The position numbers and the translations under genes were made by a program. Shown piece by piece: positions 2,053 to 22,825 of a DNA stretch of 64,000 nt (positions are counted from its first letter, which is position 1; each line of letters opens with the position of its first letter). The notes under the pieces were generated by a model. It saw only the letters and a list, made by a program, of their open reading frames with translations, had not been told where the DNA came from and made no database searches. The DNA comes from Actinoplanes sp. SE50/110 (GTDB taxonomy: Bacteria; Actinomycetota; Actinomycetes; Mycobacteriales; Micromonosporaceae): positions 5,365,001-5,429,000 of the forward strand of contig NZ_LT827010.1 in NCBI RefSeq assembly GCF_900119315.1. The letters run 5' to 3'.

Positions 2053-5000
2053 TCAGGGCCGATCCGCTGGGCCTCGACCCGGGGTGGCGGCGCGCTGACG
2101 AAAAGCCTCTCCGAACTCGCCCCGCAGCTCCACCGGGACGAGGTCCGCAATCGCCTGCTGGAGTGTCCGGTCGATCGGGTGCCCCTCCTCCTCGTGAAGT
2201 CGGTCAAGCACATTCACCGCCCAGATTCCCCTGCTCAATCTGTAGGCGACGATGGACCGGATGAAGTGCACGAAAGCAACGTCGTGCCGGCCGGAGAGGC
2301 ATATCACATCACCGAGCTGGAAGCCGACGACGGCGCACCCGGACAGTTCGCCCAGATCCACGAAGGTGTCGAGCGCCTGCTGAAAGTACTGTTCCGCCTG
2401 CTCGACTCGATGTTGTGCCACCGCGACCAGACCGAGCTGGTGGTAGGTGCTCGCCGCGCCGATTCGATCACCAGAGTTGATCTCGATATCGAGAGCCAAC
2501 CGGTAATAGTAGACCGCCTTGTCGAGCGATCCCTGCTGGAAGGCGGACATACCGAGCTGGTGGTACGTGAAGGCCATCTTGTGCCGGTCGTTGAATTCGG
2601 TGGCGATGGCGAGCGACTGTTCGAAGAATTCATTGGCGCGATCCCATTCCCCCTTATCGGAAAAAATGATCCCGAGCTGATGGTAGGGGGCTGCGAGTTC
2701 CTGCCGAGCACCGGACTCACGGATGAGATCGGCGGCCTGTCGATAATAGTCTTCCGCTACTTCCAGGCCCCCCTCCTCGTGCGCGACCATACCGAGTTGG
2801 TGGTAGGAAGTGGCCGCAGATTTGCGGTCGTTGTGCTCCAGGCTGATGTCGATGGAGTCCTGGAAATACTGCTTCGCCTCCGCAAAACGGCGCTGCTCCT
2901 GCGCAATCTTCCCGAGCTGGTTGAGGGTGACGGCCTCATACTCGCGGAGCCCGAGAGCCCGCTTCATGTCCAATTCCAGCTGGTAATGATAAGTTGCGTC
3001 GTCCAGTTGCCCCTGCGTCAGGGCCGCGTTGCCCGCAATGTTGTGCAGATCCAACAATTCCCATCGATCGTCGGCGGTTTCCGGTTCGGGGAGTCGCTCT
3101 ATCGCCTGCTCCAGCAGAGCCCGGCGGACGTTGTGCTGATGTTCCACATCGAGGTACATGTTGAGGGCGCGGACGACGGACAGGACCGGCTCCCCCGCCC
3201 CTTGCGCATAGTGGAGGGAAGCCATGAGGTTCGCATACTCGGCCTTGACCATTACACGGCCGAGCGCGCGCCGATAGGGGTCACCGGAAAGAACGGCATC
3301 CTGCATGAAAGCGGCACAGTCGACGTAAAGGCGGTAATGCGCGTGACGACACACCCGCTCCAGGTCCGGATCACCGCGGATTCGATTCCGGAGAAAGTAG
3401 GGGAGGATGGGTACGGTCTCCACGAATCCAGTCAACTCCGGATGCGCACGGGCGAGGCCGACACTACGCAGCTCGGCGACCGCACCGGCCAGATCAACTT
3501 CCCCGATGTTCACTTCCCCGGCGCCGGCGCGCAACTCATTGACGTAAATGTGCAACACCGGAACCGGAATGCTACCGGTGAACGGCGCCAGCAAGAGAAT
3601 GGACTCCTGCAGAGCCGGGTCGAGCTTGCCATGGCTGTATTCGATCGCACGACGAGCGGCCATCGACGGATCGACGGCATCACCGCCGCTGCCGAACTCG
3701 GCGAGGATCCGGGCCGGCGGCGTGCCGGCCAGCTGCGGCATGATCACCGTCATCGGCAGCGGATAGCCGTCGATCAACCGCATCAGCTCGCTCAGCGCCT
3801 TACGCTGCTCGTCATCGACGGTGTCACCCAGCCACCGGCTGCCGCCGTGCCGCGCCACGATCCGCTCCAACAGGGCCGTGGCGGCCTGTGGATCCAGACC
3901 TGGCAGGTGGTGGACGCCGCCGGCAAAGGTCGACGTCGCCAGCCACTCCTCGGCCTCCCGCGAACCCACCAGCACCAGCGTCCGCCCGCCGCGCAGGCCG
4001 GACAGGAAGCGGGCCAGCCGGTCACGTTCCCGCTCCGGGAGCGCGTGCGGGATCGCCGCCGGGCTGGCCGTGATCGACTCGGCGTTGTCGATCACGATCA
4101 GGTGCCGGGTGGCGCGCAGCCGGTCGATGATCAGGCCGGTCCGGGCCGCCGGGCCCAGCGACTCCCAGGCCGCGAACTCCGGCGCGGGCAGCAGCTCGTG
4201 CGCGATCTGGCGGGTGATCTGCTCGGCCGTCCAGGCCCGCTGCTCGTACGAGAAGGAGAAGACCTGCTCGATCAGTCCGGTCCGCTGCCACCACCAGCCG
4301 GCGTGCGCGAGCAGGGTGGACTTGCCCGCCCCGGCCATGCCACGGACCAGCACCTGGGTGCGCTCAGGATCGATCAGCAGCAGCCGTTCCAGGGCGTGCA
4401 GGTCGAGGTCACGGCCGACGAAACCGTAATCCACCGCGGGCGCCACGCTCACCTGCTCGCGACGCCGGTAGAAGACCTCCTGCTCGCCGGCGGTCATCGG
4501 CCGCAGGTCCAGCCGGGACTCCCGCTGGGCGAAGACGACCGGCAGGATCCAGTCCTCCAGATCGAGATCCTGTTCGAAGTGTCCGCGACGCGCTTTCACG
4601 TCGTGCAGGGCCGGCGGGCCTCGTACGCCGCAACGACCGGGTCGTCGCCGGCCGCGAGCCGGCCGTACAGCACCGGCATCGCCTGTTGGGCGGCGCTGAC
4701 CGTGACCGAGTACGCCATGCCGATCGCGACCGGCGCCCCGGCCGCCACCAGGTCCTGCGCCAGGCTGGCCTCGCCGCCGTCCTGCATCGCCGACTGGCAC
4801 GCGTTCAGCACCGCCACCGCCACCCGGTGCTCGGCCAGCAGCTGCGCCACCTGATCGGCCGGCACCGGCCGTGCCCGGCCCACCGTGCCGGTCTCGAAGA
4901 ACAGGAATCCCTGCCGCGCGTCGGCGGGCCGCTCGCCCGGCTCGAACAGGTAGCGCCCGGAGGTCACCCCGGAAGTCATCGCCTCGGCCGTCCCGAACCC

Positions 5001-11658: not shown

Positions 11659-12654
11659 ATGCGCGCGCTCGTCTTCACCGATCCCGGCCGGGCCGAGGTC
11701 CAGGACGTGCCGGAGCCACAGGCCGGCCCCGGCCAGGTGGTGGTCGGCATCGAGCGGGTCGGGGTGTGCGGCACCGACGTCGAGCTGTTCACCGGCGAGA
11801 TGAGCTACCTGCACACCGGCGCCGCGTCGTATCCGCTGCGCCCCGGCCACGAGTGGGCCGGAACGGTCATCGCCACCGGCCCCGGCGTCGACGAGAGCTG
11901 GCTCGGCCGGCGGGTCACCGGCGACACCATGATCGGCTGCGGCGCGTGCCCACGCTGTCGCTCCGGCCGGCACCACGTCTGCCCCGACCGGCACGAGCTG
12001 GGCTGCCGCGACGGCCTGCCCGGCGCGCTGGCCGAGCGGCTGCTCTTCCCGGCGGCCTATCTGCATCCGCTGCCCGACCCGGTCGACGCCACGCTGGGTG
12101 CCCTGGTCGAGCCGGGCGGCAACGCGCTGCGCGCGGTCCGGGCCGCCGCGGTGGCCCCCGGCGAACGGTTGCTGATCCTCGGCACCGGCACCATCGGCCT
12201 GCTCGCCGCCATGTTCGGGGCGGCCCAGGGCGCCGAGGTGCACCTGCTCGGCCTCGGCGACGAGCCGCTCGCCGACACCCCGGTGTGGACCCGCGACACC
12301 CTGCCCGACCTGCCCTGGCACGGGGTCGTCGACGCCACCAACGCGGCGGCCGTGCCGAGCCTCGCGGTGCACCTGGTCGAACCCGGCCGCACCGTGGTCT
12401 ATATCGGTCTCGCCGGCTCGCCCAGCCTGGTCGACACCCGCGACATCGTGCTCAAGGACGTCACCACCGTCGGCATTCTCGGCGCCTCCTCAGGTCTTTC
12501 CGGAGCGATTGCGGCGTACGCCGCGAAGCCCACCGCCCCGCGCAGACTGGTCGCCGCCACCCTCACCCTGCCCGAGATCGTCGACGTCCTCGCCGGCAAC
12601 CGCCCGGCCGGCGCCGGCCCCGGCCCGAAATTCCACGCCGACCCCCGCCGCTGA
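11659..12654 (+). CDS. Zinc-dependent alcohol/polyol dehydrogenase
   Basis: A 331-residue medium-chain dehydrogenase. The N-terminal GroES-like half has the catalytic zinc site pattern [11 protein letters not shown] and [11 protein letters not shown], and the structural zinc cysteines in [15 protein letters not shown]. The cofactor half has [24 protein letters not shown], a Rossmann motif with GTGTIG, but the segment after it is short and lacks the usual acidic residue signature at the end of the second strand, so NAD versus NADP cannot be judged. It resembles threonine/sorbitol dehydrogenase-like proteins. Shorter than the usual 340-350 residues. Divergent from galM, so oxidation of a sugar or polyol is plausible. 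Confidence 0.85.
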
Positions 12655-12970: not shown

Positions 12971-13513
12971 TCAGTGGCAGCGAACCTGCAGGACTGGGTT
13001 CTCATCGATGGATCCCATGACGACACTGTATTGCTCCACCCCGGGGAGCGCACGTATCGCCTCCATGGTTCGACAATCGAAATCGGAAGCCTTCATATCC
13101 AGGCGGAACGACACGGGCAGGCCGTTATCCGAACCCGACTTTTCTATCGCTTCAATCATCTCCGGTTTATCCTTGTACATTTCCTTGAACTTTGCGAGGG
13201 CTTCCTCCTTGGACTCGTATCGCAGGTCTTTGACGGCGGGGACCTTCTCCAGCTCTGTCCGTATCGCTGACGTCTGTGCCGCCGTGACGCTCTGCTTCAG
13301 AAAGAAGGAAACGTTGTACCGCTGTTCTGCGGGTTTACGCCAGCCCGACAACAGCAATACTGAGGTGGCTCCAGCGGCCCCGACGACCAGCGCCACGAGG
13401 GCTGTCGCGAGAAGGGTGACGCTTCGCCGCTTCGGCGCAGTCCCGTGGGACATGAGCGGCGGCTGTGTGGGTGCGGGCAGGTCGACGCCGGAATAAGAGC
13501 TTGAATCAGACAC
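12971..13513 (-). CDS. Single-pass protein with FtsX-type extracellular domain
   Basis: From GTG 13513 the protein has about 180 residues: a Pro-rich cytoplasmic tail, one membrane segment (SVTLLATALVALVVGAAGATSVLLLSGW), then a domain matching the FtsX extracellular region (VSFFLKQSVTAAQTSAI, VKDLRYESKEEALAKF, LPVSFRLDMKASDFDC, GVEQYSVVM). In real FtsX (about 300 residues) this domain sits between membrane helices of an ABC-like permease that works with FtsE to activate cell-wall hydrolases. Here all later helices are missing and no FtsE is nearby. A decoy or regulator of wall hydrolysis is possible. Codon use is less GC-rich than in the sugar genes to the left. An ATG at 13453 is an alternative start. 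Confidence 0.7.
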   Translation of the reverse strand: MSDSSSYSGVDLPAPTQPPLMSHGTAPKRRSVTLLATALVALVVGAAGATSVLLLSGWRKPAEQRYNVSFFLKQSVTAAQTSAIRTELEKVPAVKDLRYESKEEALAKFKEMYKDKPEMIEAIEKSGSDNGLPVSFRLDMKASDFDCRTMEAIRALPGVEQYSVVMGSIDENPVLQVRCH

Positions 13514-14107
13514 GGCGGGCCACTCTATCAGAGGGGGCCAATACTGCGACTGCCGCCTCGATTCCACAGCGTTGACGATGAGATATTGCCGTCCGACCGA
13601 AGGACGACCAGCTATCTTTTGTGCAATGCGCCAAACAGCCCTGAGCTGGACCCGCCGATTAGGCGAAAACTGCTGTCCGCACCGCACGGGGTCAGGCCTA
13701 CTCTTCCGAAGCCAAGATCATTTCAGAGCCGCGCCCACAACTGAGTGAGGCTCCGGGCGACAAAGGAGCGACTTCACTGTCATGATTTTCCTGAATGGGC
13801 AAGCACCGCGTCGTCGGTAGCTCGCACAGGCTACGGTCCTGGGCGACACGTAGGGAGATACAGATGGTGGAAATGGATCATCGCCAGGCGATTGAACGAA
13901 CGCTTTCCGTCGGTCGGCCGATGGCCGTAGCGACAGTCTGCCCATATGGTCACGGCCACGACAGGAACCTCGCGAAGCTGGCCGCCACCGGATCTTCGGC
14001 GAAAACGCATCCATCGCCACCGCGGCCCACGGCCGGAGAAATCTGTGCTGAACGGTGCCGTCATCTGATGCGCCAGCGGTGGCCGACCAGCGAGAATACA
14101 AGATTGG
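13514..14107. other. Long non-coding stretch between two orphan membrane proteins
   Basis: Nearly 600 bases with lower GC than the surroundings. Open frames on both strands translate to Arg/His/Ser-rich sequence with no domain. It must hold the promoters of the two divergently arranged flanking genes, but I cannot pick out confident -35/-10 pairs or operators. Confidence 0.35.
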
Positions 14108-14767
14108 GTGGATCTTCCGACGATGGGAATACTCCTGGCGATCTCCGTTCTGGTCGCCATCACGGGTGTACTGATCGTGGCCATCGGTCGATCCACCGGC
14201 GCTGATCGCGCCAGCTGGGCCGGCGTGCTGGTCGGCGTGGTCGGCGTCGCGGCGACAGTCTTTTTCGGCATTCAGGCCCACGGCGACTCGACCGGCGGCA
14301 GCACACACGCCGGCCCCTCGGCGACTCCGCCGTCGAAGCCTTCACCGGAACACGTCATTTATGTCGCCGAGGTCAACCAGTGGTGCCGGGATGCGCAGGC
14401 ACAGCTCGACAGGGCCGGGGAAGCGCCGGATAACGGCATCGCCGCCCAGGTTCGATGGACAACGGCAGCGGAGAACACGTTGAAGGCACTCTATTCCAAA
14501 TGGGCTCCAGCTCCATATCCCGAGGAGGATGAGGAGCACATCAAGGCTATGATGAATTCATTGAACCGCATACAGGTCGATGTCAACCTTCTCTTGACCC
14601 TATTGGAGCAGCAGGGTCAGGCCAAAACGCAAGCCGTCTCCGATGGCCTTCAGAACCAAGTGAATGCCACAATCGCAAAGGTCAGTGACGACTATAACGA
14701 CATCGACGATGCGATCGTCTCCTACGGCGACCTCGCAGACTGCCGGAGCTTCTTCACATCCCGGTGA
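14108..14767 (+). CDS. Hypothetical membrane-anchored protein
   Basis: A 219-residue protein of unknown function. Two membrane segments lie at the N-terminus (ILLAISVLVAITGVLIVAIG and SWAGVLVGVVGVAATVFFG), then a Thr/Ser/Pro linker, then a helical extracytoplasmic domain of about 140 residues with two cysteines (QWCRDAQAQL and LADCRSFF) that could pair. GTG 14108 is the longest start; ATG 14123, with GGTGGA ten bases upstream, is at least as likely. Neighbours are also orphan membrane proteins of lower GC. No family is recognised. Confidence 0.7.
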   Translation: MDLPTMGILLAISVLVAITGVLIVAIGRSTGADRASWAGVLVGVVGVAATVFFGIQAHGDSTGGSTHAGPSATPPSKPSPEHVIYVAEVNQWCRDAQAQLDRAGEAPDNGIAAQVRWTTAAENTLKALYSKWAPAPYPEEDEEHIKAMMNSLNRIQVDVNLLLTLLEQQGQAKTQAVSDGLQNQVNATIAKVSDDYNDIDDAIVSYGDLADCRSFFTSR

Positions 14768-14846
14768 CGCCAGGTTCCCCTGAGAACCATCACCTTCGGG
14801 GCGGGGACGGTGCGACGGCAGGCCTCGACAATGGCGGTCCGGTGCA

Positions 14847-15350
14847 TCAGGGCAATTCCCACTGCACGTCGGTGGTATTCACCGGCTGCGGTCGGTATCC
14901 TTCCGGATCTTTCCGCGATCCCGTTCTCGGATACCTGAGAAATGGAAAGAACGCAACGAGTACAGAAAGTAGCGCAATGGCGCCGACCGTGGTCCATTTC
15001 GCTGGTTCACTGACATCAAAGGACCCAGGACGAGTATGCGGCTCAAGCAAGGGATAGATAGCGCCTGCTTCGCCGAGGATGAACACCACCGAGGAGACGA
15101 CGGCCAACACGATCCCACCACGGTGGCGATTGCGCGACTTGTCGAAACTTCGCGAAAGAATTTCCAGCCTCGTGGTGAAGTCCCCGCTTGCCTTTCCCTT
15201 ACCACTCTCCCAGAGTTCCTCGATTCGTCGACGTGCTGCCATAATTCTCAACGCGCGTTGCCGAGCGAGATGAATATTCTCGATCCAGATGGGAATCATC
15301 AAAGCCGGAAGTATCTGAGCCGAGGCGGCGAAATAGGTCTCCGAGTCCAC
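14847..15350 (-). CDS. Hypothetical membrane protein
   Basis: About 167 residues if the GTG at 15350 is the start; the frame is open to 15488, and the start is uncertain. Three membrane segments are visible: FAASAQILPALMIPIWIENI, GIVLAVVSSVVFILGEAGAI and TTVGAIALLSVLVAFFPFL. A basic helical stretch (LARQRALRIMAARRRIEELW) lies between the first two, probably cytoplasmic. No family is recognised. It is convergent with the previous membrane protein and shares its lower-GC codon use, so the two may have come in together. Confidence 0.65.
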   Translation of the reverse strand: MDSETYFAASAQILPALMIPIWIENIHLARQRALRIMAARRRIEELWESGKGKASGDFTTRLEILSRSFDKSRNRHRGGIVLAVVSSVVFILGEAGAIYPLLEPHTRPGSFDVSEPAKWTTVGAIALLSVLVAFFPFLRYPRTGSRKDPEGYRPQPVNTTDVQWELP

Positions 15351-15617
15351 CTCTTCATTATGCCGATGAGCGCAATAACTGTTCCCCCATTCGGATGACG
15401 GATTTGGGCTCGGCCCCGGCCAGCGTCCGGATCTGCCGCTGATGGCGCCCACCTCCTGCGCGGCGTCCGAGCCGCCGCGTGCGACCAACGCAGGTCGATC
15501 GCCGTTGGAGTAGGCGCCGGCAGCAGGAGCTTCGGATGATCGGGTTGCCGGGGCGGATACGCTTTTCGCGTAACCCGCGGGAAGGTGAAAGATCCGGTGC
15601 CCGTCCAGACTCGACGC

Positions 15618-16817: not shown

Positions 16818-19379
<2,562 letters not shown>

Positions 19380-22258: not shown

Positions 22259-22825
22259 TCAGGGCAGGAAGATCTCCGCCAGCGACACGATCCGGTTCGC
22301 GTCGATGGTGAACTTGATGACGGTGTCCGGGTGGGTGCCGGCCAGGAACGTCTTCAGGTCGACGGACTTCAGCGTGCCCTCGACGGTCAGCTTGATGGTG
22401 GCGTCCGGGTCGACGGTGAGGGTGCGCAGCTTCGTGTTGTTGTTCCGGATGTACCAGCCGGTGCACTGGTCGTCGTCGGTGTCCTTGACCCCGTCCTCGG
22501 CGCAGGCCTTGGTGGCCTCCTTGCCCTCGTACCACTCGATCAGGTCGTAGGTGATCTGCCGGGTGGCCGGCTTGCTCGACTTGAGCAGCGCGTACTGGAT
22601 GCCGAAGGCCGGATTGGACGAGCCGGCCGGCTTCGCCTTCACCACGGCCGGGCTCTTCGGAGCCGCCACCGGCTTGGCCGAGGCGGGGGCGACCCCCGAC
22701 TCGGCGGTCGCGGTCGTCGTGGTCGTGGTCGTGACCGGGGTCGCGGCCGGCGCGGCGACCTTCTTGTCGCCGCAGGCGGCCAGCGACATGATCAGAATCG
22801 GGACGAGGGCGTATGTCAGGCGCAT
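22259..22825 (-). CDS. Lipoprotein, function unknown
   Basis: A 188-residue protein from ATG 22825, with GGAGAG five bases upstream. The signal peptide ends in a lipobox (LIMSLAAC, Cys at about 19), so it should be lipid-anchored outside the cell. A Thr run and Ala/Pro/Lys linker (about 30-70) lead to a small folded part (QYALLKSSKPATRQITYDLI to the end) with two cysteines and repeated Thr/Val/Asp beta-strand-like sequence. No family is recognised. It stands between the acyltransferase operon and a helicase remnant. Confidence 0.8.
   Translation of the reverse strand: MRLTYALVPILIMSLAACGDKKVAAPAATPVTTTTTTTATAESGVAPASAKPVAAPKSPAVVKAKPAGSSNPAFGIQYALLKSSKPATRQITYDLIEWYEGKEATKACAEDGVKDTDDDQCTGWYIRNNNTKLRTLTVDPDATIKLTVEGTLKSVDLKTFLAGTHPDTVIKFTIDANRIVSLAEIFLP

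Follow-up and report, generated by a model that had tools for sequence, protein, structure and literature searches.

A single-pass protein with an FtsX extracellular domain in Actinoplanes sp. SE50/110 and its stand-alone relatives in Micromonosporaceae

The locus and its genomic setting

The window analysed here is the whole stretch of 64 kb (C1:5365001-5429000) taken from the 9.24 Mb single-contig genome of Actinoplanes sp. SE50/110, which belongs to the family Micromonosporaceae. Across about 12.75-15.5 kb of the window the GC content drops from 0.70-0.76 to 0.57-0.65, and the three open reading frames concerned have GC3 values of 0.71, 0.73 and 0.63, whereas the 39 predicted window genes longer than 150 aa average 0.93 (sd 0.04); the lower-GC patch of membrane proteins that an earlier note had described on this DNA is therefore real. 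The gene-free gap of 594 bases that the same note had reported is likewise exact, between 13513 and 14108, and holds no recognisable gene or RNA, since no Rfam match was found in it at E 0.5 and its overlapping ORFs do not have the high-GC codon pattern. The coordinates of all features are given in Table 1.

Table 1. Features of the locus, in window coordinates (ECD, extracellular domain; TM, transmembrane).
Feature	Position	Strand	Remarks
Accessory segment	12655..22258		between the presumed zinc alcohol dehydrogenase gene and 22259; absent there in relative G206
Single-pass FtsX-ECD protein (type C; gene 1)	12971..13513	-	180 aa from GTG at 13513
Codon of C-terminal Cys179	12977..12979	-	invariant in 8-row alignment; putative disulphide partner of Cys147
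FtsX extracellular domain (PF18075)	13031..13315	-	profile match and model, pLDDT blocks mostly 84-95
Codon of Cys147, FDC motif	13073..13075	-	invariant in 8-row alignment
Predicted transmembrane helix	13349..13423	-	model residues 31-55, low pLDDT; hydrophobic sequence seen directly
Gap with no recognisable gene or RNA	13514..14107		594 bases
Lineage-specific membrane protein (gene 2)	14108..14767	+	219 aa; unrelated to the FtsX-ECD gene, no established link
Possible two-TM protein (gene 3)	14847..15488	-	213 aa; weakly DUF4231-like; coding uncertain; no established link to the FtsX-ECD gene

The three genes had also been regarded as lacking family partners, which does not hold for the first, as it has four other PF18075 genes in the same genome and belongs to a large family clade, and does hold for the other two. 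Besides itself, gene 2 has three matches in 67 Actinoplanes genomes (E 2.9e-4 to 7.3e-4), and no relative of gene 3 was found among the same 67. The GC content of gene 3 by codon position is 0.60/0.52/0.63 and its DUF4231 match (E 0.027) lies below the cut-off; its coding status is uncertain. As far as sequence comparison goes, genes 2 and 3 are lineage-specific, with nothing tying them to the FtsX-ECD gene.

Regarding the wider setting, in four of six loci from relatives (L144, L145, L146 and L149) the order is alcohol dehydrogenase gene (window 11659-12654), one large gene, TetR-like gene (window 23246). In the relative G206 (L148), a homologue of window 22259-22825 comes almost directly after the alcohol dehydrogenase gene (4368 to 4374) and the kinase homologue sits elsewhere, with 91% identity. 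It follows from this comparison that the window gene lies within a variable segment of about 9.6 kb. The names alcohol dehydrogenase, TetR-like and kinase, as well as ftsE and smpB below and HelD-like for a gene found in the relatives, are assumed from recognition. A plasmid origin and a phage origin were both considered and discarded, as the window protein, searched by tblastn, weakly matched a single entry of the plasmid collection (27% identity, E 6e-3, in a Nonomuraea record of 11.9 Mb) and nothing in phages. As to signs of a mobile element, the window holds no tRNA and short repeats only, and scans for promoters and terminators did no better than shuffles. The window also encodes a large secreted protein at 17049-19379 (+), which, recognised by eye, we take to be a multi-domain xylan-degrading enzyme.

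An FtsX extracellular domain on a single membrane helix

The first gene encodes a Pro/Ser-rich tail, then one hydrophobic helix and then the FtsX ECD, with alternative in-frame starts possible at 13687, which would give a longer protein, or at 13453. PF18075 matches it over profile positions 2-95 of 96 with 70.4 bits (cut-off 23.5, E 2e-19), and with the full-length FtsX models it scores 33.9 bits for NF038346 (cut-off 250), 43.0 for NF038347 (225) and 40.2 for TIGR00439 (255). The frame stops directly after the ECD, and the protein has neither the permease helices nor the four-TM layout of FtsX. None of the predicted genes nearby looks, by eye, like an ABC ATPase (FtsE); the gene has no hydrolase gene as a direct neighbour, and the ftsE-ftsX operon sits elsewhere in the genome. 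In all of this the locus agrees with what the earlier note had read from it, namely an isolated FtsX domain with no permease helices and no FtsE.

An AlphaFold2 model, made from an alignment of eight rows (the window protein and its related loci), has a mean pLDDT of 71, its ECD blocks lying at 65-95 (mostly 84-95) and its tail and helix below 50. The secondary structure of the model, E-H-E-H-H-E-H-E, has the upper lobe and the helical lower lobe of the FtsX ECD fold; ranks 1-7 of a Foldseek search with it are all FtsX, and its best solved matches by VIA-align are 4n8n (the M. tuberculosis FtsX ECD), with Z 10.5 and 2.8 A over 95 residues, and 6tpi (the FtsX periplasmic domain with EnvC), likewise with Z 10.5. 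The upper lobe being of the widespread ferredoxin-like kind, unrelated folds of that type, permutants of ribosomal S6, score up to Z 10.3, and the homology to the FtsX ECD therefore stands on sequence and fold jointly. A predicted structure unlike the FtsX domain had been named beforehand as the result that would speak against the identification, and the model fits FtsX ECDs best (4n8n, at the Z given above). Judged by profile and model together, the window protein is a real, homologous stand-alone FtsX ECD.

FtsX of M. tuberculosis holds RipC via a Phe cluster of its lower lobes (F61/F110/F113/F122), and the two ECDs of an FtsX dimer grip RipC together (PMC10694151). The residues aligned to this cluster, in one alignment that needed a gap around F110/F113, are F/Y/M/L in the window protein and F/Y/F/L in the genome's own FtsX, so that all four hydrophobic docking positions are kept. 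Regarding possible ligands, a search of the genome at E <= 1e-5 gave ten M23 and nine NlpC/P60 matches. The true FtsX gene lies at C1:1.117-1.119 Mb in the row ABC ATPase-ftsX-M23 peptidase-smpB (the M23 confirmed by profile), and this adjacent peptidase, which is not an NlpC/P60 RipC, has a long helical N-terminal region with a weak RipC match (E 2e-4). By a crude measure, the N-terminal part of five hydrolases includes a long stretch poor in P/G (76-113 residues), namely that of the ftsX-adjacent M23 and of four NlpC/P60 proteins (76-85), so candidate partners outnumber FtsX. Candidates of the NlpC/P60 kind with such a helical N-terminal region lie at C1:2871376, 242350, 1320906 and 358252. 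The window protein may, as had been proposed, rival true FtsX for its hydrolase; no partner is encoded next to it.

Stand-alone FtsX domains in the Micromonosporaceae

The earlier note had suggested looking in this genome for further single-pass proteins with an FtsX domain, and the search was positive. There are five PF18075 genes, namely true FtsX, three single-pass proteins (that of the window, own4 and own5) and a lipoprotein, own3 (L038 4831-5301, minus strand). In the survey of the family, 99 of 101 genomes have at least one PF18075 match, and many have more than one. An expansion throughout the wider lineage was considered and rejected, since hand reading of 196 genomes of the class gave extra PF18075 copies in the window's genome and in two other families (f14 and f15), and in the remaining families PF18075 is single-copy or absent. 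Within Micromonosporaceae, three stand-alone architectures can be distinguished: type A, with a short Arg-ending tail, a TM helix and an ECD with one cysteine on either side; type B, lipoproteins, some of them with two ECDs; and type C, that of the window protein and of own4 and own5, in which tail, TM helix and ECD are combined with the FDC motif and a C-terminal cysteine.

Type C accounts for at least 71 full-length copies in at least 50 of 300 Micromonosporaceae genomes, by a hand count with up to 12 candidates scored per genome. Both of its cysteine features are invariant in six proteins and kept by the majority of the wider set, with a different residue ahead of DC or C in a minority (e.g., L105 and L111). 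A tree of 109 ECDs, whose type labels had been set beforehand from profile scores, locus and architecture by eye, gathers the 57 type C rows into a single clade with support of 99/96 (present in 98% of bootstrap trees) and the 31 true FtsX into a second with 92/97; neither type A nor type B, with few columns available, was recovered as a single group. At the four docking columns, large hydrophobics occupy 31/31 rows each in true FtsX, 11/12, 11/12, 12/12 and 12/12 in type A, 6/7, 7/8, 6/8 and 8/8 in type B, and 43/54, 44/56, 40/56 and 56/57 in type C, where the mean background over 109 columns is 28%. Such a pattern is consistent with retained docking, but these columns rank 9th-25th of the 109 in hydrophobicity, many core columns being their equals.

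Type C is also under purifying selection. Between the window gene and L125, its closest relative in the tree, which has a similarly low GC3 (0.69) and no nearby synteny with the window locus, the NG86 dN/dS is 0.21 (YN00 0.19); in the five other pairs compared the NG86 values are 0.18-0.56, the highest coming from the closely related L104/L116, for which YN00 gives 0.21. Tandem type C genes occur at 11 loci, some of which had been chosen for being tandem, and in 8 of these 11 pairs the copies split into two matching paralogue clades, {L108, L109, L110, L114, L115} and {L106, L112, L113}; the tandem pair therefore predates the species split. By analogy with the two ECDs of the FtsX dimer that grip RipC, this suggests that tandem partners may work together.

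Among the neighbours listed, no conserved partner gene was seen next to type C across lineages. Local synteny exists in close relatives only, presumably with RTX-like repeat genes beside one subclade and with pseudouridine synthase/scp genes beside the own5 type, these names having been recognised by eye. Several loci are peculiar in other ways. At L088 (3404-5086, minus strand; Micromonospora veneta) and L094 (3254-4696, minus strand), the type C protein has an extra C-terminal domain after the ECD, that of L088 having a sub-threshold match to the SCO4651-type lipoprotein family. At L092 (4040-5014, minus strand), a type C frame starts with part of an ECF sigma region (47 bits), which may stem from a sigma gene that has decayed or been fused. 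Across L105-L115, the matching tandem clades hint at heteromeric ECD pairs.

The stand-alone FtsX-ECD proteins are, as a family, apparently undescribed: no description of stand-alone or single-pass FtsX-ECD proteins was found in the literature, and a prior mention in ECF reclassification work is possible. FtsX has been studied as a mechanotransmitter whose ECD acts together with FtsE; a family that keeps the ECD and not the ATPase would be a natural experiment on the ECD acting by itself. For actinomycetes that form hyphae and spores, stand-alone ECDs would, moreover, be at hand as dominant-negative or scaffold forms.

Possible roles and likeness to known systems

How, then, might such a protein act? 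The reading that we prefer, tentatively and with a chance that we put somewhat below even, is that type C is an FtsX ECD that docks coiled-coil wall hydrolases with neither FtsE nor ATP gating, as a clamp, a decoy or a scaffold. The short Pro/Ser-rich cytosolic tail and the one TM helix would present the two-lobed ECD outside, and the cysteine pair probably closes, by a disulphide, the end of the ECD that TM2 anchors in FtsX. The hydrophobic hook of the lower lobe, as used by FtsX, would then dock a secreted wall hydrolase by its helical coiled-coil arm, with no FtsE and hence no ATP gating. Acting as dimers, or as heteromeric pairs of the kind that the tandem genes suggest, type C proteins would keep hydrolases at the membrane. 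They may serve as a reservoir or a decoy, with less FtsEX-driven cutting at the septum as the outcome, or else as a scaffold for other hydrolases. We infer hydrolase binding, dimerisation and the direction of the effect of type C, and this reading is supported by the PF18075 match, the fold of the model, the retained docking residues, the single clade, the dN/dS of about 0.2, the matching tandem clades and the several candidate hydrolases. It is weakened by the lack of an adjacent hydrolase gene and of a conserved partner among the listed neighbours; by the docking hydrophobics, which may serve folding, are kept more loosely by type C than by true FtsX and are matched by many core columns; by the gap needed in the alignment around F110/F113; by the eight-row alignment and mean pLDDT of 71 of the model; and by the one pair with a dN/dS of 0.56.

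Is the domain instead a signalling input, reporting hydrolase occupancy or the state of the wall to the cytosol, in type A through an adjacent sigma factor and in type C through the tail or an unlinked partner? We hold this to be rather doubtful, and it draws its force from type A, which has at least 78 copies in at least 77 of 300 genomes (by a hand count of full-length rows, with up to 10 candidates scored per genome) and whose profile aligns with true FtsX only over positions about 81-190, with at most 134 bits. In a first sample of type A, an ECF sigma neighbour was found at all 12 loci (at nine by Pfam and at three more by NCBIfam, as SigE family), the sigma gene lying upstream and not downstream at L047. 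At the best 30 type A loci (L152-L181), a SigE-family sigma gene lies directly downstream on the same strand in 30/30, with at most 99 bases between the matches, as opposed to 0/30 true-FtsX loci with a SigE-like gene in that place; the sigma profile was built from the first sample, to which several of the best 30 loci belonged. Type A and the sigma gene are probably co-transcribed. Nevertheless, the window has no sigma-factor match anywhere in its 64 kb, and no type A gene was found in its genome at E <= 1e-30. Of 44 type C loci, 3 had a sigma match within 1.5 kb: that of L092 is a fragment, that of L094 belongs with a type A gene close by, and that of L105, directly downstream, is genuine and in favour of an input. 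Furthermore, one type A protein compared with NCBIfam matched FtsX models and, weakly, Spy (E 0.0034) and CU044_5270 (E 0.0088), with no recognised anti-sigma domain. This sigma-linked sister family is more surprising than the window protein itself, and the strictness with which type A is paired with an ECF sigma factor suggests an undescribed path leading from the state of wall hydrolases to transcription. By a term search, FtsX does not occur in a review on non-canonical ways of ECF regulation (PMC8999054).

A recruitment of the ferredoxin-like ECD for unrelated binding (of a lipid, a glycan or another protein), with the hydrolase contact lost, would agree with the extra C-terminal domains of L088 and L094 and with the lack of a conserved hydrolase neighbour, and is nonetheless unlikely, given that the lower-lobe helices that bind hydrolases and the hydrophobic hook are kept. 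That the window gene is a decaying accessory gene with no function, as its GC3 of 0.71, the absence of the variable segment at that place in a relative and the patchy occurrence of type C might indicate, is very improbable in view of its open frame, its conserved motifs and its dN/dS of about 0.2 against L125, whose GC3 is equally low.

Beyond the preferred docking of hydrolases by type C, a broader and speculative proposition, which we consider improbable as a whole, would be that Micromonosporaceae have spread an ATPase-free FtsX ECD as a sensing module, in which type A reads the state of hydrolases or of the wall and switches a SigE-family sigma factor of its own and type C provides ATP-independent, partly heteromeric clamps that set hydrolase availability. 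If this were true, wall cutting and envelope-stress transcription would share one docking domain.

Among known systems, the closest to the window protein is the FtsX ECD (ECL1) of M. tuberculosis FtsEX-RipC, with which it shares PF18075, the two-lobe fold, the hydrophobic docking positions and a membrane helix directly preceding the ECD. Unlike FtsX of FtsEX, it lacks the TM2-TM4 permease part and FtsE, lies outside the ftsEX operon and has an extra C-terminal cysteine pair. By their description in the source, SteA/SteB, the regulators of RipA/RipC in Corynebacteriales, may be analogous in their membrane control of coiled-coil hydrolases apart from the FtsEX ATPase (PMC6705760). Type A, for its part, resembles membrane-bound ECF anti-sigma factors in its short cytosolic segment, its one TM helix, its extracellular domain and its ECF sigma neighbour. 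It differs from them in that no known anti-sigma domain was recognised in the one protein scanned, in that its extracellular part is an FtsX ECD, and in its gene order, with type A ahead of the sigma gene where an anti-sigma gene usually comes after it.
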